Source: Pedobacter sp. D749 (GTDB lineage: Bacteria; Bacteroidota; Bacteroidia; Sphingobacteriales; Sphingobacteriaceae). From it: DNA of 64,000 bases. The position numbers were made by a program, and so were the translations under genes. Below, one piece after another: positions 1,258 to 9,730 of the stretch (position 1 is the first letter of the stretch; each line of letters begins with the position of its first letter). The stretch is taken from the NCBI RefSeq assembly GCF_019317285.1, contig NZ_CP079218.1:620001-684000 (forward strand), written 5' to 3'. Below the pieces are notes generated by a model. That model was not told the origin of the DNA and did no database searches. It saw only the letters and a program-made list of their open reading frames with translations.

Positions 1258-2103
1258 ATGTTTATGAATACTTTAAAAATCATCCCTGTTTTTCTTTTAT
1301 TAACCATTATGGCTTTTGCTCAGGAAAAAGCTGTTCCAATTAATATCATTACCTATAACATCCGCTTAAATGTGGCATCAGATGGTGTTAACGCCTGGCC
1401 AAACCGAAAAGACAATGTAAAAGCGTTAGTAAAATTTCACGATGCCGACATTCTGTGCGTACAGGAAGCCTTGCCCGAACAATTTGATGCATTGCTCGAA
1501 AATTCTAATTTCGATGTGGTAGGAGTTGGCCGTGAGGATGGGAAAAGAAAAGGAGAATTTTCTGCTGTTTATTTTGATAAAGACCGTTTCACTAAAAAAG
1601 ATGGGGGAACGTTTTGGTTGTCAGAAACTCCTGATGTTCCATCAAAAGGTTGGGATGCTGCGCTGAACCGTGTATGCAGCTGGGTTAAATTGTACGATAA
1701 GTTAAATAATAAAGAATTTATCGTTTTTAATACCCATTACGATCATATTGGGATGAAAGCAAGAATTGAATCAGCTAAATTATTGAAACAAAAAATACAG
1801 CAGATAGCACCTGCTTTGCCGGTTGTTTTTACAGGCGATTTAAATGTAACACCCGAAACTGAAGCCATTGCAACCATCAAATCTTTTCTGACCGATGCTA
1901 AAGAGATTTCGGTAGAGCCACCGTATGGTCCTGCAGGTACTTTTAACGGTTTTCATTTCGATAGCGACTTGAAAGACCGGATTGACTACATTTTTGTAAA
2001 CAAAGGTTTTAAGGTGCAAAAGTTTGCCGTTTTAACCGATAGTAAGGATAAAAGGTATTATTCTGATCATCTGCCAGTTTTCTGTAGACTTTTTTTTAAA
2101 TAA
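1258..2103 (+). CDS. Secreted endonuclease/exonuclease/phosphatase-family hydrolase
   Basis: EEP (DNase I-like) fold metal-dependent phosphodiesterase; the substrate cannot be told from sequence. Visible motifs in order: TYNIRLN near the N terminus, VQEALPEQ with the metal-binding Glu, FNTHYDHIG, FTGDLNVTPE, RIDYIFV and the terminal SDHLPV catalytic Asp-His pair. A signal peptide (MNTLKIIPVFLLLTIMAFA) means export to the periplasm or beyond. I prefer the ATG at 1258 or 1264 over the TTG 36 nt upstream because only the ATGs place the hydrophobic segment at the N terminus. The next gene starts immediately after the stop codon, so they are probably co-transcribed. Confidence 0.85.
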   Translation: MFMNTLKIIPVFLLLTIMAFAQEKAVPINIITYNIRLNVASDGVNAWPNRKDNVKALVKFHDADILCVQEALPEQFDALLENSNFDVVGVGREDGKRKGEFSAVYFDKDRFTKKDGGTFWLSETPDVPSKGWDAALNRVCSWVKLYDKLNNKEFIVFNTHYDHIGMKARIESAKLLKQKIQQIAPALPVVFTGDLNVTPETEAIATIKSFLTDAKEISVEPPYGPAGTFNGFHFDSDLKDRIDYIFVNKGFKVQKFAVLTDSKDKRYYSDHLPVFCRLFFK

Positions 2104-2868
2104 ATGCTACTAAAAACCCTTTCAATTTTTCCTTTTCAATTCGAGCTTTTTGGTAACCAATACCATTATCACTATATTTTCGAAACGCTCGCATTTATAA
2201 TCGGTGTTAGGCTTTATTACTATTATAAAAAAGGCATCGTAGATCAGATTTCTGACGAAAACAGGCTTTGGATTATGTTGGGAGCCATGTTTGGCGCATT
2301 AATAGGATCTCGGGTGGTAGCTGTACTGGAAACTCCAGAGGTAATCAATCACCTAACGTTTTCAATTTTATATCAAAGTAAAACCATTGTTGGCGGTTTA
2401 CTTGGTGGTTTGTTCGGTGTCGAATTGATAAAAAAGATCATAGGTGTGAATATCGCTTCTGGAGACATCTATGTGATCCCGATTTTGGTTGCACTGATGA
2501 TAGGCCGTATCGGCTGCTTTTCCATGGGGATTGATGAACCAACTTATGGAGTTCCCACTCATTTTTTTATGGGTATGGATTTGGGCGACGGAATCCTTCG
2601 GCACCCGATAATGCTCTATGAAATGATTTATCTCCTACTGTTAATTTTTCTTTTTAACAGATTAAAACTGGTGGAAATGATTAACGGCGATCGATTTAAA
2701 CTATTTATGGTATTGTATTTTCTATTTCGCTTCTTAATCGAATTTATTAAGCCTTATCAATCATTATTTTTAAATTTAAGCAGTATTCATTGGTCTGCAT
2801 TGTTTATTTTTATTTATTATTATAGATTCATCATCAGAATTTCTAAACAAATAGCTGCTAAAAAGTAA
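2104..2868 (+). CDS. Lgt-like integral membrane transferase (divergent)
   Basis: A 254-residue multi-span membrane protein resembling prolipoprotein diacylglyceryl transferase. It keeps the family landmarks IVGGLLGG, IGRIGCF, a downstream HPIMLYE and a C-terminal RFLIEF. Canonical Lgt has FHGG with an essential His and GRIGNF with a conserved Asn; here those positions read V and C, so ordinary lipoprotein maturation is doubtful. The conserved Arg of GRIG is present. The ATG directly abuts the stop of the upstream hydrolase, and the radical SAM gene begins 5 nt after its stop, so the three probably share a transcript. Function is best given as phospholipid- or lipoprotein-modifying enzyme of the Lgt superfamily. 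Confidence 0.75.
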   Translation: MLLKTLSIFPFQFELFGNQYHYHYIFETLAFIIGVRLYYYYKKGIVDQISDENRLWIMLGAMFGALIGSRVVAVLETPEVINHLTFSILYQSKTIVGGLLGGLFGVELIKKIIGVNIASGDIYVIPILVALMIGRIGCFSMGIDEPTYGVPTHFFMGMDLGDGILRHPIMLYEMIYLLLLIFLFNRLKLVEMINGDRFKLFMVLYFLFRFLIEFIKPYQSLFLNLSSIHWSALFIFIYYYRFIIRISKQIAAKK

Positions 2869-2873
2869 ACACT

Positions 2874-4268
2874 ATGGCCAATACCAGAGATTATATATAC
2901 TACGATTATACCAAGAGCCTTTGTCCGGAATGTTTACAGCTTTGCGATGCAAAAATTGTTTTTCAGGATGCTAAAGTGTTTATGTTGAAAAACTGCAGAA
3001 CGCACGGTGATAGTAAAGTGATGATTGCTGATGATGTTGAATACTATAAACAGATCAGGAATTACAATAAACAGTCGGAAATGCCACTTAAGTTCAATAC
3101 CAAAGTACATTACGGTTGCCCTTACGATTGTGGTTTGTGTACTGATCATGAACAGCATTCGTGTTTAACGGTAATAGAAGTTACTGATCGTTGCAACCTG
3201 GCCTGTCCGACTTGTTATGCCATGTCGTCGCCAAGTTATGGCAGGCACAGAACCTTGGAAGAAATAGAACGCATGATGGATGTTGTAGTAGCCAACGAAG
3301 GCGAACCCGATGTGGTTCAGCTTTCGGGCGGAGAGCCAACGGTACATCCTGAGTTCTTTAGGATTTTAGATCTTGCCAAAACCAAACCCATTAAACACCT
3401 GATGGTGAATACCAACGGGATCAGGATTGCCAAGGATATTAATTTTGTGGAAAAACTGGCAACTTATATGCCCGATTTTGAAATTTACCTGCAGTTTGAT
3501 AGTTTCAGCGCTGAAGTATTAACAAAACTAAGGGGCGAAGATCTTACCGAAGTGAGGAGAAAAGCAATAGATCATTTAAATCAATTTAATGTATCTACTA
3601 CTTTGGTGGTAACCTTGCAAAATGGGTTGAATGATCATGAAATTGGCGATATTTTAGATTATGCATTAAAGCAGAAATGTGTTCGTGGCGTTACTTTCCA
3701 GCCTACTCAGGTTGCCGGAAGAAATGATGATTATAATGATCAGCAGGGAAGAATCACCTTAACTGAGGTACGCAGAAAAATTTATGAGCAATACCCAACC
3801 TTTACCCCACAAGATTTAATCCCTGTGCCATGTAACCCCGATGCATTATGTATGGCTTATGCTTTAAAAATCGGTGATGAGGTGATCCCGATGACGCATT
3901 TGATCAATCCAGAAGATTTGCTCAACAATTCAAAAAATACGATTGTTTTTGAACACGATGAAAAATTGAAAGAACATATGCTCAACCTGTTTAGTACAGG
4001 TGTTTCAGTAGATTGTGCCGAAGATACCTTTGGCGAATTGATGTGCTGCCTGCCCAGGGTAAAATCAGATAGTTTAAGTTATGACAATTTATTTCGGATC
4101 ATTATCATGAATTTTATGGACCCGCTGGACTTTGATGTACGTGCAGTTAAAAAATCATGTGTGCACATTGTGAGCGATAAATACAAAATGGTACCCTTCG
4201 AAACGATGAATATTTTTTACCGCGACAATAAAATAGATCTGATCAGGGAAAAATTAAATATGAACTAA
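2874..4268 (+). CDS. Radical SAM protein, COG1964 / tetraether lipid synthase-like
   Basis: 464 residues. An N-terminal zinc-ribbon-like part has CPECLQLC and NCRTHG (about residues 17-45). Next is YGCPYDCGLCTDHEQHSCL and then IEVTDRCNLACPTCYA, the CxxxCxxC-type site that would hold the SAM [4Fe-4S] cluster, and LSGGEPTVHPEFF, the SAM-binding GGE motif. This order matches the COG1964 group that includes archaeal Tes (MJ0619 type), which joins lipid chains by C-C bonds. The C terminus keeps a CVHIV...VPFETMNIF remnant of the family tail but without its extra cysteines. Neighbours are an Lgt-like enzyme upstream and two small membrane proteins downstream, which fits lipid work. The substrate is unknown. 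Confidence 0.8.
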   Translation: MANTRDYIYYDYTKSLCPECLQLCDAKIVFQDAKVFMLKNCRTHGDSKVMIADDVEYYKQIRNYNKQSEMPLKFNTKVHYGCPYDCGLCTDHEQHSCLTVIEVTDRCNLACPTCYAMSSPSYGRHRTLEEIERMMDVVVANEGEPDVVQLSGGEPTVHPEFFRILDLAKTKPIKHLMVNTNGIRIAKDINFVEKLATYMPDFEIYLQFDSFSAEVLTKLRGEDLTEVRRKAIDHLNQFNVSTTLVVTLQNGLNDHEIGDILDYALKQKCVRGVTFQPTQVAGRNDDYNDQQGRITLTEVRRKIYEQYPTFTPQDLIPVPCNPDALCMAYALKIGDEVIPMTHLINPEDLLNNSKNTIVFEHDEKLKEHMLNLFSTGVSVDCAEDTFGELMCCLPRVKSDSLSYDNLFRIIIMNFMDPLDFDVRAVKKSCVHIVSDKYKMVPFETMNIFYRDNKIDLIREKLNMN

Positions 4269-4269
4269 T

Positions 4270-4464
4270 ATGGGTGGTTTATTTGGCTTATTTGTAATTT
4301 ATTGTCTTACCGCAATTGTACTTTTTGTAGTTGGGATTATTCAGATTATCATTAAATCATCCAGGAACGAACCGGTAAAATCGGGGCTGAAACTGCTAAT
4401 TATATCAGTAATTATGGTGATAATCGGTTTTGGTGCTTGTGCAGTATTGCTCGCCAACAGTTAA
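4270..4464 (+). CDS. Small two-helix membrane protein (first of a duplicated pair)
   Basis: 64 residues with two predicted membrane helices (about residues 4-26 and 40-62) separated by a basic loop containing NEPVKSGLKL. The ATG begins one base after the radical SAM stop codon, so translation is likely coupled. It aligns along its length with the next gene (shared GIIQII, PVKSGLKL, SVIM and GACAV). I do not recognise a named family. Its role could be to hold or position the two upstream enzymes at the membrane, but that is inference. Confidence 0.75.
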   Translation: MGGLFGLFVIYCLTAIVLFVVGIIQIIIKSSRNEPVKSGLKLLIISVIMVIIGFGACAVLLANS

Positions 4465-4478
4465 TTTTAAAATAAATC

Positions 4479-4673
4479 ATGGAACTTTTTATTGTATACT
4501 GGGTAATTGTAGGATTGTTATTTACAATTGGTATCATTCAAATCATTGTAAAAGCGGCTAAAAATCAACCTGTTAAGTCAGGGCTTAAATTGGTTATTGC
4601 TTCAGTGATTATGCTGGTAATAGGAGCAGGTGCATGCGCGGTAATTCTATCTAATTTAAGTATTGGCCATTAG
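4479..4673 (+). CDS. Small two-helix membrane protein (second of a duplicated pair)
   Basis: 64 residues, same topology and length as its upstream neighbour, from which it is separated by 14 nt. Shared blocks are GIIQII, QPVKSGLKL, SVIM and GAGACAVIL; the first helix and the C-terminal tail (SNLSIGH) differ most. Tandem duplication followed by divergence is the simplest explanation. It is the last gene of the block beginning with the Lgt-like gene; the pheT promoter lies 57 bases downstream. No known family recognised. Confidence 0.75.
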   Translation: MELFIVYWVIVGLLFTIGIIQIIVKAAKNQPVKSGLKLVIASVIMLVIGAGACAVILSNLSIGH

Positions 4674-4729: not shown

Positions 4730-4802
4730 TATCTTTGCGTTTTATAGAAATAGAGTATCAGTTGAGATTTGTCTTGATACCTGATACTCAAACTTGATAC
4801 TC
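4730..4802 (+). promoter_or_regulatory. pheT -7 box and leader with inverted GTATC repeats
   Basis: TATCTTTG at 4730-4737 matches the -7 consensus, predicting a start near 4744 and a leader of about 63 nt. The leader contains GAGTATCAG (4753-4761) and its exact complement CTGATACTC (4781-4789), followed by another TTGATACTC copy ending 5 nt before the ATG. The hairpin would sit in the pheT 5' UTR. It also belongs to the iterated-word hairpin family seen elsewhere in the window. Confidence 0.6.
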
Positions 4803-4806
4803 CAAA

Positions 4807-7206
4807 ATGAAAATATCATATAACTGGTTAAAACAATTCGTACAGATTGATAAAACGCCTCAGGAACTTTCCTTAATCCTTACCAATGTTGGTTTAGAAG
4901 TAGAAAGTGTAGAAAAAGTGCAGCCCGTTGTTGGCGGCTTGGAGGGGTTGGTTATCGGCGAAGTATTAACCTGTGTTCAGCATCCCAATGCCGATCGTTT
5001 GCGCATTACTACGGTAAACGTTGGTGGTAAAGAAAACCTTCAGATTGTTTGCGGTGCTCCAAATGTAGGCGCTGGTCAAAAAGTGGTAGTCGCTACAGTA
5101 GGTACAACAGTATATCCTTTAGAGGGTGAGCCTTTTAAAATAAAAGAATCAAAAATCAGGGGCGAACTTTCTCAGGGCATGATTTGTGCAGAAGATGAAA
5201 TTGGCTTAGGCAAGTCTCATGATGGAATTATGATCCTTGACGAAGATACCGAAATTGGGATCCGCGCAAAAGACCATTTCAAAATGGATGATGATTTTGT
5301 TTTCGAAATCGGATTAACACCAAACCGTGCCGATGCGGCTTCGCATTTAGGTGTGGCGAGAGATTTAGCTGCTTATTTCAGAAGTGAATATGAAATGCCT
5401 GATCTTTCCGCTTTTAAAACAGATAACGAAAATCTGGTAATTCCGGTAGAAGTAGAAGATTTTGCCGCTTGTCCGCGTTACAGCAGCCTTACCCTTTCTG
5501 GCGTTACCGTAAAAGAATCACCAGATTGGTTAAAAGATAAATTGAAGGTAATTGGTTTACGTCCGATTAATAATGTGGTTGATATTACCAATTATGTACT
5601 TCATGGTTTAGGTCAGCCTTTACATGCTTTCGACGCCGATAAAATTACCGGTGGAAAAGTAATCGTGAAAAAAGTTGCTGAAGGAACACCGTTTATAACC
5701 CTTGATGATGTGGAGCGTAAGTTAAGTGCAGATGATTTAATGATCTGCAATGCTGAAGCACCAATGTGTATTGCAGGGGTTTTCGGCGGAAAGTCTTCTG
5801 GTGTTGACACCAATACCAAAAATATTTTCTTAGAAAGTGCTTATTTCAATTCGGTTTCTGTACGAAAAACATCAAAAAGACATGGTTTAAAAACCGATGC
5901 CTCTTTCCGTTACGAGCGTGGTACCGATCCGGAGATTACAGTAACAGCTTTAAAATATGCAGCTTTATTAATTAAAGAACTGGCTGGAGGCGAAATTTCT
6001 TCATCAGTTTCTGATATTTATCCAAGCCACATCAAGCCGTTTGAGTTTGATGTGAGCTATACCAATATCAATAAATTAATCGGTGCAAATATCCCTTCAA
6101 CCGAAATTAAACACATTATTACAGCTTTAGGTATTTCGGCAACCAATACTTCTGATGATACCCTGGCTTTAAGAGTGCCATCGTTTAAAGTTGATGTGAC
6201 GCGTGAGTGCGATATTACTGAAGAAGTATTACGTATTTATGGTTATGACAATATCGAAATTCCGGCAAAGGTAAATGCATCGCTTTCATACAGCGTTAAG
6301 CCTGAAAAAGAAAATACGCATAATGTAATTGCAGATATGCTTGCCGCTAATGGTTATGCAGAAATTATGTGTAACTCGTTAACTAAATCGGCTTATTCGA
6401 AAAATTTAGACGAAGCAGTATTCATTTTAAATCCGTTAAGCAGCGATTTAAATGTAATGCGCCAGAATTTATTGATGCCGGCTTTAGAAAGCGTAGCCTA
6501 CAACCAGAACCGTAAAAATGCTGATGTTAAGTTTTACGAATTCGGTAAAACCTACCATTTAATCAATGAGCAATATGTAGAGCGTCCAAGGTTGTTATTG
6601 TTGATTTCGGGCGCTAAACAAAGCGAGCAATGGAACCATAATGCGAAGTCATCTACTTTCTATAATTTAAAATCAGCAGTTGATGCAATTATATCGCGTT
6701 TAGGCGTTACAAGCTATCAGTCTGATACTTTAAATGATGAAAACTTTGCTTACGGCATCAAATATTTCCGTGGAGATAAAATCCTGGTAAGTTTCGGTGC
6801 GGCTTCAAAAGCCGACCGCAAAGTGGCTGATGTAAATGCAGAGGTATTTTATGCTGATTTCGATTGGGCAACTTTATTAGATATTGTAAGGAAAAATAAA
6901 ATCGTACACAAAGATGTTTCTAAATACCCGCAGGTTCGTCGCGATCTTTCATTGTTGATTGATCAAAATGTAACCTTCGATACCTTAAAGGGTATTGCAT
7001 TTAAAACCGATAAAAAGCTGATCAAGGAAGTTGGTGTATTCGATGTATACGTTGGTGATAAATTGCCGGAGGGAAAAAAATCTTATGCCTTGAATTTTAT
7101 TTTGCAGGATGAAGAACAAACCCTAACCGATAAGCAGATTGAAAACACGATGCAGAAATTAATCGCGAATTTAACGGCACAAGCTGGTGCAGAAATTAGG
7201 AAATAA
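4807..7206 (+). CDS. pheT: Phenylalanine-tRNA ligase beta subunit
   Basis: Beta chain of the alpha2-beta2 enzyme that charges tRNA-Phe. 799 residues, the usual bacterial length. N-terminal KISYNWLKQFV, then an EMAP-type tRNA-binding domain (HPNADRLRITTVNVG, about 55-75), the B3/4 region, a B5 domain containing TRECDITEEVLRIYGYDNI (about 460), a catalytic-like core domain, and a C-terminal anticodon-binding FDX-ACB domain starting near KYPQVRRDLSLL (about 706). pheS is not in the window, so the subunits are encoded apart. The next gene follows after 31 nt and may be co-transcribed. Confidence 0.97.
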   Translation: MKISYNWLKQFVQIDKTPQELSLILTNVGLEVESVEKVQPVVGGLEGLVIGEVLTCVQHPNADRLRITTVNVGGKENLQIVCGAPNVGAGQKVVVATVGTTVYPLEGEPFKIKESKIRGELSQGMICAEDEIGLGKSHDGIMILDEDTEIGIRAKDHFKMDDDFVFEIGLTPNRADAASHLGVARDLAAYFRSEYEMPDLSAFKTDNENLVIPVEVEDFAACPRYSSLTLSGVTVKESPDWLKDKLKVIGLRPINNVVDITNYVLHGLGQPLHAFDADKITGGKVIVKKVAEGTPFITLDDVERKLSADDLMICNAEAPMCIAGVFGGKSSGVDTNTKNIFLESAYFNSVSVRKTSKRHGLKTDASFRYERGTDPEITVTALKYAALLIKELAGGEISSSVSDIYPSHIKPFEFDVSYTNINKLIGANIPSTEIKHIITALGISATNTSDDTLALRVPSFKVDVTRECDITEEVLRIYGYDNIEIPAKVNASLSYSVKPEKENTHNVIADMLAANGYAEIMCNSLTKSAYSKNLDEAVFILNPLSSDLNVMRQNLLMPALESVAYNQNRKNADVKFYEFGKTYHLINEQYVERPRLLLLISGAKQSEQWNHNAKSSTFYNLKSAVDAIISRLGVTSYQSDTLNDENFAYGIKYFRGDKILVSFGAASKADRKVADVNAEVFYADFDWATLLDIVRKNKIVHKDVSKYPQVRRDLSLLIDQNVTFDTLKGIAFKTDKKLIKEVGVFDVYVGDKLPEGKKSYALNFILQDEEQTLTDKQIENTMQKLIANLTAQAGAEIRK

Positions 7207-7870: not shown

Positions 7871-7945
7871 TCGTCACTCTGAACTTGTTTCAGGGGCTGT
7901 TTAATAAGATCCTGAAAATCCGATAGTTATCGGATCAGGATGATG
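7871..7945. repeat. Palindromic dispersed repeat (cactctgaacttgtttcagg type)
   Basis: The segment runs from tcgtcactctgaacttgttt to atcaggatgatgg and contains a perfect inner hairpin ccgata-gt-tatcgg at 7920-7933. Outer parts are loosely complementary (cctgaaa and tcagg; cgtca and tgatg). This type of REP-like element is common in intergenic DNA of many bacteria. It lies between zapA and the 6S RNA. Confidence 0.6.
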
Positions 7946-7964
7946 GGGCCAATATTTAGCATAA

Positions 7965-8144
7965 AGACATAGCCGCGGCTAGTTTTTGAGTTTCAAATTT
8001 TATAAAACTTAACACTTCAATATCTATAGGGTTAAGAGGGCGTATTTCATCTGCTATGGCACCTGAAAATGGCTTAAACCCTAATTATGCTTAGTTGAGG
8101 TTTAAAATGTATGAGACTTTAAAAATTAGTTGCGGTTTTTTTTT
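7965..8144 (+). ncRNA. ssrS: 6S RNA (6S-Flavo type)
   Basis: The RNA would bind the RNA polymerase holoenzyme by mimicking an open promoter. Direct support is structural: 7973-7987 (ccgcggctagttttt) pairs along its whole 15 bases with 8121-8135 (aaaaattagttgcgg), counting G-U pairs. The stem continues inward between about 7989-8003 and 8103-8118. A large internal bubble follows, then a terminal stem pairing agggttaag (8028-8036) with cttaaaccct. The closing stem is followed at once by nine T (8136-8144), a natural 3' end. Position between zapA and rny matches 6S RNA placement in Bacteroidota. The exact 5' end is uncertain. Confidence 0.75.
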
Positions 8145-8158
8145 ACTTAAAAAACAAA

Positions 8159-9730
8159 ATGGAAATAGTTGAAATATTAGGATACGTATTTGCCGTAATA
8201 GCGGGTATAGCTATCGGAGTAGTGGTAGGAAGATTCCTCCTGCGTAACTTGCTTAAACAGCAGGAAGTTGCCGCACAGAACAAAGTGAAAAAGATTTTAA
8301 AAGATGCAGAAAACAATGCAGAGATATTAAAAAAGAATAAACTTTTAGAAGCAAAAGAAAAGTTTTTGCAAATGAAAGCGGAGCATGAGCAAGAAGTGAA
8401 TGCCAAAAATAATAACATTAACCAACGCGAAAACACCATGAAGCAGAAAGAGCAATCGGTGAACCAGCGCATGGAAAACTTCAATAAAAAAGAACAGGAA
8501 CTCGATAAGCACAAAAGCAACCTCGAAAAACAAACTGAACTTGCTATTAAAAAGCAAGAAGAGGTAGAAGTGCTTAAAAATCAACACCTAACACAATTGG
8601 AAACTATTGCAGGTTTATCGGCCGAAGAGGCTAAAAACCAGTTGGTAGAAAATCTAAAAGAAGTTGCCCGTACACAGGCCATGATCCAGATTAAGGATAT
8701 TGTTGACGAAGCAAAATTAACGGCGAGCAAAGAAGCTAAAAAAGTGGTGATCCAAACCATTCAGCGTACGGCCACCGAAGCTGCGATTGAAAACTCTGTT
8801 TCTATTTTTCATATCGAAAGTGACGAGATTAAAGGTCGCGTTATTGGTAGAGAAGGTAGAAATATCCGCGCTTTAGAAGCGGCAACCGGTATTGAGATTA
8901 TTGTGGATGATACACCAGAAGCCATTATTTTATCCGGTTTCGACCCGGTAAGAAGAGAAATTGCCCGTTTAGCTTTACACCGTTTGGTAACAGATGGTCG
9001 TATCCACCCGGCGCGTATTGAGGAAATTGTAGCGAAAACCAAAAAACAGATCGAAGATGAGATTGTAGAGATTGGTGAGCGTACAGTGATCGATTTAGGT
9101 ATCCATGGTTTACATCCGGAGCTGATCCGCATGGTTGGCCGTATGCGTTACCGTTCATCTTATGGACAAAACTTATTACATCACTCTCGTGAGGTAGCTA
9201 ATTTCTGTGCTACCATGGCTGCAGAATTAGGTTTAAATGCTAAAATGGCCAAACGCGCTGGACTATTACACGATATAGGTAAAGTGCCTGATGATAATCC
9301 TGAATTGCCACACGCAATTTTAGGGATGCAACTGGCCGAAAAATATAAGGAACACCCTGAAATCTGCAATGCCATTGGTGCTCACCACGATGAAATTGAG
9401 ATGACTTCAATGATTTCTCCAATCATTCAGGCTTGCGATGCTATTTCTGGTGCCCGTCCTGGTGCCCGCCGTGAGGTTGTAGAAAGTTACATCAAACGTT
9501 TAAAAGATCTTGAAGAACTGGCTTTATCTTACCCTGGTGTAGAAAAAACTTTTGCTATCCAGGCTGGTAGAGAGTTACGTGTAATTGTAGAAAGCGAACG
9601 TATTACCGATGCACAGGCAGAACTTTTAGCCGCTGATATTTCGACTCGTATTCAAACCGAAATGACTTATCCGGGGCAGATTAAGGTTACTGTAATCAGG
9701 GAAACCCGTTCTGTAGCATTTGCGAAATAA
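8159..9730 (+). CDS. rny: Ribonuclease Y
   Basis: Membrane-anchored endoribonuclease that starts bulk mRNA decay. 523 residues: an N-terminal membrane helix (about 5-25), a long charged coiled coil (about 35-190), a KH domain with [16 protein letters not shown] (about 225-240), and an HD domain with [10 protein letters not shown] and [11 protein letters not shown] (about 340-375) supplying the metal-binding His/Asp pairs, then a second HHDEIE. Length and order are standard. It begins 15 nt after the T tract of the 6S RNA, so its promoter must lie within or before that RNA, or some transcripts read through. Confidence 0.96.

Follow-up and report, generated by a model that had tools for sequence, protein, structure and literature searches.

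Four adjacent genes in a 64,000-nt window of Pedobacter sp. D749 (the window being the whole stretch of DNA that was analysed) belong to a set that recurs in other bacteria: a paralog of Lgt, a radical SAM enzyme (rSAM) of the superfamily that includes Tes, and one or two tiny membrane proteins that end shortly after a cysteine. That a system of co-conserved genes exists is well supported, and the small proteins are a key part of it. What it does chemically has to be inferred. I propose, at a probability of roughly 0.4, that it is a dedicated three-component modification system for the tiny membrane protein. Both small proteins of the window carry the conserved C-terminal cysteine, and they are probably the substrate of the system.

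The four genes (Table 1) are tightly packed, separated by 5, 1 and 14 nt, just as an earlier, sequence-only reading of the window had described them. Judged by dN/dS against five Pedobacter-type relatives, all four look real and are under purifying selection: 0.06-0.08 for the Lgt paralog, 0.01-0.02 for the rSAM, 0.05-0.08 for small protein 1 and 0.07-0.09 for small protein 2. The genome is a single contig of 5.84 Mb and has a second Lgt gene, of the canonical type, at 1,423,192-1,424,274. A search of the same genome for further, unlinked small proteins returned only the pair at this locus as significant, the next match having an E value of 0.03.

Table 1. The four genes of the set, with positions in the window
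Feature	Position	Strand	Evidence
Lgt paralog, 254 aa, distinct from the genome's canonical Lgt	2104..2868	+	Pfam LGT; AF2/Foldseek match to E. coli Lgt; R135 and R209 invariant
Radical SAM enzyme (rSAM), 464 aa, Tes/TrsS superfamily	2874..4268	+	Pfam/NCBIfam; PDB 7tol sequence match; Foldseek 7tom
Small two-helix membrane protein 1, 64 aa, Cys57 (codon 4438-4440) 7 residues from C-terminus	4270..4464	+	Family conserved beside rSAM; dN/dS
Small two-helix membrane protein 2, 64 aa, Cys53 (codon 4635-4637) 11 residues from C-terminus	4479..4673	+	Tandem copy, family of small protein 1; dN/dS

The grouping of these genes is far beyond chance. In a sample of 198 genomes across the phylum, the rSAM (counted at E <= 1e-20) is found in 18 and the Lgt paralog also in 18, the latter at a limit of E <= 1e-10 that was chosen post hoc, once the matches were known, and that leaves out weaker matches (59 genomes in all at E <= 1e-5). 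Both enzymes occur in 17 genomes (Fisher p = 2e-22, kinship ignored), and in 16 of these the two genes lie within about 1.3 kb of each other; in G034 they are on separate contigs. One genome (G066) has an rSAM, at 35% identity, without the Lgt paralog, and one (G017) has the Lgt paralog without the rSAM.

The picture within the genus is sharper still. Among 119 genomes, with limits of E <= 1e-60 for the rSAM, 1e-25 for the Lgt paralog and 1e-4 for a profile of the small protein, the rSAM is present in 53, the Lgt paralog in the identical 53 (the lists were matched by eye) and neither enzyme in 66. The small protein is present in those 53 and in five more. In G202, one of the five, the radC-pheT site holds just a relic, the last helix and the cysteine tail; in G266 the match is a relative of 90 residues whose cysteine has other surroundings; the remaining three matches fall inside frames of 481-485 residues. 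Some of the 53 genomes hold broken copies, for example of the rSAM in G199 and of the Lgt paralog in G206. The absence of partial sets outweighs the p-value, since joint loss of neighbouring genes is partly to be expected. The sequence-only reading had called for a search for co-occurrence across Bacteroidota and would have fallen had the pair not been conserved in relatives. As the two enzymes are kept together in both samples, the pair is conserved.

A scan of contigs confirmed 585 relatives of the rSAM, and the named loci discussed below are the best 80 of these. The nearest named records among them are from Pedobacter (98-99% in the rSAM), and 79 of the 80 are labelled Bacteroidota, the exception (L083) being a MAG called Limnohabitans. 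The Lgt paralog is near the rSAM in 73 loci, and in 62 of the 73 the two genes overlap or leave no more than 60 nt between the end of the paralog and the start of the rSAM. Two loci (L089 and L149) have the paralog split across two frames. Of the seven loci without it, four (L091, L093, L100 and L127) have an rSAM that starts less than 0.9 kb from a contig edge, and in the other three (L116, L143 and L150) no Lgt paralog was found in the 5-6 kb upstream of the rSAM.

Downstream of the rSAM, 75 of the 80 loci have one (40 loci) or two (35 loci) short membrane ORFs with a cysteine near the C-terminus, mostly within the tail motif [GS]-x-[GS]-x-C. In the remaining five, the small protein was not found in L092, L117 and L150, and in L120 and L143 the contig ends less than 300 nt from the rSAM. 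The motif was also counted with no selection for cysteine. When ORFs are taken only by where they start relative to the rSAM stop (-30 to +60 nt), one with the tail motif is found in 68 loci, one without it in 4 and no ORF in 8. Among hydrophobic ORFs of 45-110 residues, the motif, a pattern defined after inspection of the sequences, occurs in 104 of 117 near the rSAM stop and in 15 of 422 elsewhere in these loci.

The tail was described from 114 candidates, short hydrophobic ORFs that adjoin the rSAM and have a cysteine among their last 16 residues; a few of them (on the upstream side or overlapping) may be spurious. Counting back from the cysteine, 107 candidates have G or S at position -4 and 106 have G, S or A at position -2, and the last cysteine is never more than 13 residues from the end. 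The usual lipobox has a small residue (G, A or S) just before the cysteine. Here that residue is often Thr, Ile or Val (T 31, I 31, A 21, S 10). In L147 one of two tandem copies has Phe in place of the cysteine, beside a copy that retains it. An alignment of 29 chosen members, with a mean column identity of 21%, is variable outside the tail; its invariant cysteine is no independent evidence, since the members were picked for having it.

Charges around the tail were examined in 109 small proteins, 104 from the 80 loci and 5 from distant loci. In 104 of the 109, 15-20 uncharged residues precede the cysteine; a Lys or Arg closes this run in 102, and the region ahead of it is net positive in 96. 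By the positive-inside rule, a positive flank stays on the cytoplasmic side of a membrane, so the cysteine end is predicted to lie outside, in the periplasm, on the side where Lgt acts. The tail thus resembles, in its sequence, the layout of a lipoprotein signal that has been moved to the C-terminus. Given the C-terminal site and the Thr or Ile that often stands just before the cysteine, it is doubtful that the usual signal peptidase cleaves here. Pfam and NCBIfam scans of small proteins (the two of the window, two of M. branderi, one of Nonomuraea and one of L066) yielded no family above its cut-off, nor did a Pfam scan of those of L067 and L105.

A dedicated short partner, present as two tandem candidate copies in 35 of the 80 loci, variable outside its tail and with no leader identified, might suggest something RiPP-like: a precursor with residues (the cysteine, for example) modified by the rSAM and a product lipidated or exported by the Lgt paralog. 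I consider this unlikely. The nearest profiles to the rSAM are Tes and TrsS, and the SPASM peptide maturases are weak matches, far below cut-off. The tail of the small protein is hydrophobic and membrane-embedded, and no protease or transporter is conserved beside the set in the loci examined. Nor need the small protein be a substrate. It could instead serve as a subunit in the membrane, bringing the rSAM to the Lgt paralog or lending its cysteine to the active site, and it is indeed kept beside the rSAM in L116, where no Lgt gene was found in 6 kb upstream. This strikes me as very unlikely, considering that the predicted outward cysteine lies away from a cytosolic rSAM and that a substrate would better explain both the tandem copies and the rapid change of the sequence outside the tail.

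What of the enzyme that might act on such a cysteine? The product of the first gene scores 71.7 bits against Pfam LGT (cut-off 24.9), and its AF2 model (pLDDT 92.0) has E. coli Lgt as its sole PDB match at E <= 0.001 (Foldseek 5azb, E 1.8e-6, TM 0.67), bearing out its earlier assignment to the Lgt superfamily as a membrane protein. Against the best NCBIfam model of Lgt itself it scores 35.4 of 334 bits, below cut-off. R143 and R239 are described as essential in E. coli Lgt in the portion of PMC4728403 used here. Their equivalents, R135 and R209, are invariant in 49 sequences, and also in a set of 10 that includes the genome's canonical Lgt. It is tempting to take the loss of E. coli His103, likewise essential, and of Asn146 as proof of a different reaction. 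The idea fails: the canonical Lgt of the same genome lacks both, with Tyr and Cys in those places, and none of the 10 sequences has a His where His103 should be. Its absence therefore does not separate the paralog from the canonical enzyme, and the paralog may well be capable of the ordinary donor chemistry. The likeness to the lipoprotein pathway extends to the fold, the essential arginines and the place of the acceptor cysteine, where a helix that follows positive charges reaches its outer end. The differences are that the acceptor sits C-terminally in a mini-protein with several helices, that the sequence before the cysteine is odd and that there is a partner of the radical SAM type.

That partner has the fold of Tes but falls short of the Tes cut-off. 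The second ORF scores 93.1 bits for Radical_SAM and 65.2 for the Zn_ribbon_HMPTM domain (cut-off 27), and it has the cysteine layout that had been read from the letters: C17xxC20..C41xxH44, then GC82PYDC86GLC89, then C107xxxC111xxC114. It matches PDB 7tol by sequence (E 1e-65). Comparison of a predicted structure with Tes had also been suggested, and Tes proves to be the top PDB match for the AF2 model (Foldseek 7tom, E 2e-34, TM 0.79), which has a pLDDT of 75.7 and its minimum at 352-398, a stretch that holds C391 and C392. By these comparisons it shares with Tes the fold, the rubredoxin-type CX2CX20CX2H site, the N-cluster motif, the cysteines of the RS cluster and Met439, the ligand residues and the rubredoxin-type site of Tes being taken from the part of PMC9433317 used here.

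There are also differences. The rSAM reaches 273.6 of the 450 bits required by the NCBIfam model of Tes. According to the text drawn on from PMC9433317, Met439 and Tyr459 are invariant in archaeal Tes, the latter in 1,000 archaeal homologs; in the alignment Met439 corresponds to Met412 and Tyr459 to Ile432, and of the four Tes cysteines around Met439 only one is matched, by C429. The enzyme differs from Tes (GDGT-MAS, MJ0619) in its partners as well, an Lgt paralog and a Cys-tailed protein. The best-scoring NCBIfam model, nearly full length, is that of the radical SAM (seleno)protein TrsS (NF045646), yet here too the score is below cut-off (316.7 of 490 bits) and there is no Sec. TrsS outscores Tes in all four rSAMs scanned (those of the window, L163, L161 and L066), none of which reaches either cut-off. 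A TGA flagged in the rSAM of G121, which might have hinted at a selenoprotein, is simply the stop codon of that gene, where the match ends. The bacterial membrane-spanning lipid synthase Mss is credited with coupling acyl chains (in the parts of PMC13274423 and PMC11868695 used here), and the window's rSAM is likened to it by description only. In a small tree of 29 rows, a branch (support 95/72; 94% of 200 bootstrap trees) separates the Lgt-linked rSAMs from Tes, Salinirubellus, M. vanbaalenii and G066. Several rows have long branches or odd composition, and the Tes row is only the printed core stretch. Four rows (L116, L127, L143 and L150) are labelled 'lgt' by clade, with no Lgt gene on the DNA examined, so the count of labels tilts towards the reading offered here.

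The sequence-only reading took the four genes for a candidate lipid-modification system. The co-conserved system stands; tetraether synthesis as its function is not supported, in view of the Tes score below cut-off, Ile432 and the tree. A fuller version would have the rSAM join the ends of phospholipid acyl chains into membrane-spanning lipids, with the Lgt paralog exchanging or attaching the coupled lipid and the small proteins serving as scaffold subunits. The Tes fold and Tes-type cofactor motifs speak for it, as do the coupling of chains by Tes and Mss (parts of PMC9433317 and PMC13274423) and the proposal that bacterial Tes homologs make brGDGTs (part of PMC8941075). I nonetheless regard it as distinctly unlikely, for besides the low Tes score and the lost Tyr459 it leaves the conserved C-terminal cysteine unexplained. 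Furthermore, the three rSAMs of actinobacterial trios lack the N-cluster motif, which makes the N-cluster dispensable for whatever the members of the trio share.

The model I prefer, a dedicated modification of the small protein, begins with the Lgt paralog. Lgt transfers diacylglyceryl from phosphatidylglycerol to prolipoproteins. At somewhat less than even odds, the paralog would transfer the same group from the same donor to the C-terminal cysteine of the small protein, an acceptor that is probably left uncleaved. What suggests this is that the paralog is inherited together with a protein in which nothing is as constant as the cysteine at its lipoprotein-like site. The rSAM may then modify acyl chains, either in the donor lipid or on the protein once it is lipidated, a more tentative step. 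Acting on acyl chains, before or after their transfer, would be its simplest role, since its superfamily couples lipid chains: Tes, according to the portion of PMC9433317 used here, binds phospholipid chains and draws them into a hydrophobic tunnel. The main alternative, that the rSAM acts on the peptide of the small protein itself, seems less probable again.

The weak point of the model is location, since a cytosolic rSAM is to be expected and the cysteine is predicted to be outside. The enzyme would need to work on donor lipid while this is still in the inner leaflet, to reach the ends of the chains in the middle of the membrane or to act on the peptide prior to insertion. I count against the model the missing His103 and a residue before the cysteine unlike that of a lipobox, and also the loci and genomes with an incomplete or split set (L116, L143, L150, G034, G017, L092 and L117, neither partner having been found in L150) and the copy with Phe in L147. 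I count in its favour the co-occurrence and adjacency of the genes, the small protein with its motif and topology, the recurrence in another phylum, the Lgt fold and arginines, the Tes fold and an ICMT-family gene in two distant loci. In its boldest form, which I think improbable, the Lgt paralog would anchor diacylglycerol on the C-terminal cysteine of an uncleaved mini-protein and the Tes-like rSAM would couple or edit the acyl chains, giving a protein-tethered and possibly membrane-spanning lipid in Bacteroidota and Actinomycetota.

The two distant loci (L066 and L067, from the phylum sample) have rSAMs 39% and 37% identical to that of the window. In both, the genes run rSAM, membrane methyltransferase, DUF4395 protein and Lgt paralog, followed by a small protein that has a cysteine near its end. 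The methyltransferase that joins the set is of the ICMT family (membrane Cys methyltransferase-type); this and the DUF4395 assignment were made by Pfam, scanned for L066. In G096 a protein ending GLLSGGMCIFLPQPL lies between the Lgt gene and the rSAM, overlapping the former. The range outside Bacteroidota was drawn from plasmid records, which makes it a lower bound on the phyla concerned. Ten such records have a match to the rSAM; neighbours were inspected in six, and the trio is present in four, Persicobacter (L162), Nonomuraea (L165), M. branderi (L163) and M. avium (L166). The trio thus recurs in Actinomycetota, in the last three records, where the tails of the small proteins resemble SILSAGICTGINPSLYG. 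In plasmid records of M. vanbaalenii and Salinirubellus, a methyltransferase gene adjoins the rSAM.

Each enzyme is a member of a known superfamily, yet the set as a whole does not fit any of the known systems as defined, among those compared. No description of it was found in the open-licence PMC literature (most subscription papers and preprints lie outside that scope), and none had been known to the earlier reader. Bacterial Tes homologs are reported without a confirmed role in the parts of PMC8941075, PMC9433317 and PMC11868695 used here. One bacterial branch of the superfamily now gains a concrete set of partners and a likely protein substrate. If the model is true, the set is a post-translational modification system that unites lipoprotein-type and radical chemistry. 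If instead the paralog does no more than transfer diacylglyceryl and the rSAM has its target elsewhere, the set is less novel.

An origin in phage or in anti-phage defence was considered and rejected. PADLOC returned only viperin models, by way of the radical SAM core, and PHROGs only families with a radical SAM domain; neither had any match to the Lgt paralog or to the two small proteins. Directly upstream of the Lgt paralog, with zero gap, is a gene for an endonuclease/exonuclease/phosphatase protein (1258-2103). It is not counted in the set, because a gene of this kind is found upstream on the same strand in only 11 of the 80 loci, all of them Pedobacter/Nubsella-type. L142 also has a match, on the opposite strand.

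There is one genome in the same-genus sample, G202, that has neither the radical SAM gene nor the Lgt paralog and yet keeps a relic of the small membrane protein that accompanies them; this remnant between radC and pheT is a trace of operon loss. At locus L147, the first small ORF after the radical SAM gene carries Phe at the position of the conserved Cys, while the next tandem copy retains the Cys, and the roles of the two copies may differ. The canonical Lgt of the window genome has Tyr at the position of the essential His103 of E. coli and Cys at that of Asn146.

Among the 80 loci compared (the best 80 of 585 radical SAM relatives from named contigs), a gene of the endonuclease/exonuclease/phosphatase family stands upstream of the Lgt-like gene, on the same strand, in 11 loci of the Pedobacter/Nubsella type and in none of the remainder. 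In the window the gap between the two genes is 0 nt. Contig L083 belongs to a MAG whose title names Limnohabitans, but its radical SAM protein clusters with Pedobacter/Nubsella sequences, and the contig is probably mis-binned.

On the plasmids of M. vanbaalenii and Salinirubellus, a SAM methyltransferase gene replaces the Lgt set after a related radical SAM gene, and directly upstream in M. vanbaalenii lie genes for a thiol-disulfide protein and CcdA.

Features of the window and of the loci compared with it
Feature	Location	Remark
Endonuclease/exonuclease/phosphatase-family gene	window 1258-2103	Pfam Exo_endo_phos
ICMT-family membrane methyltransferase + DUF4395 protein	L066 (distant locus) 4784-5858	between radical SAM gene and Lgt paralog
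ICMT-family membrane methyltransferase + DUF4395 protein	L067 (distant locus) 7883-8951	between radical SAM gene and Lgt paralog
Small-protein relic, last helix + Cys tail	L168 (G202), about 2039-2173	between radC and pheT
Canonical Lgt	G000:C1:1423192-1424274 (L003)	
Radical SAM gene, then SAM methyltransferase gene	L161 6977-9345	M. vanbaalenii plasmid
Radical SAM gene, then SAM methyltransferase gene	L164 4893-7171	Salinirubellus plasmid
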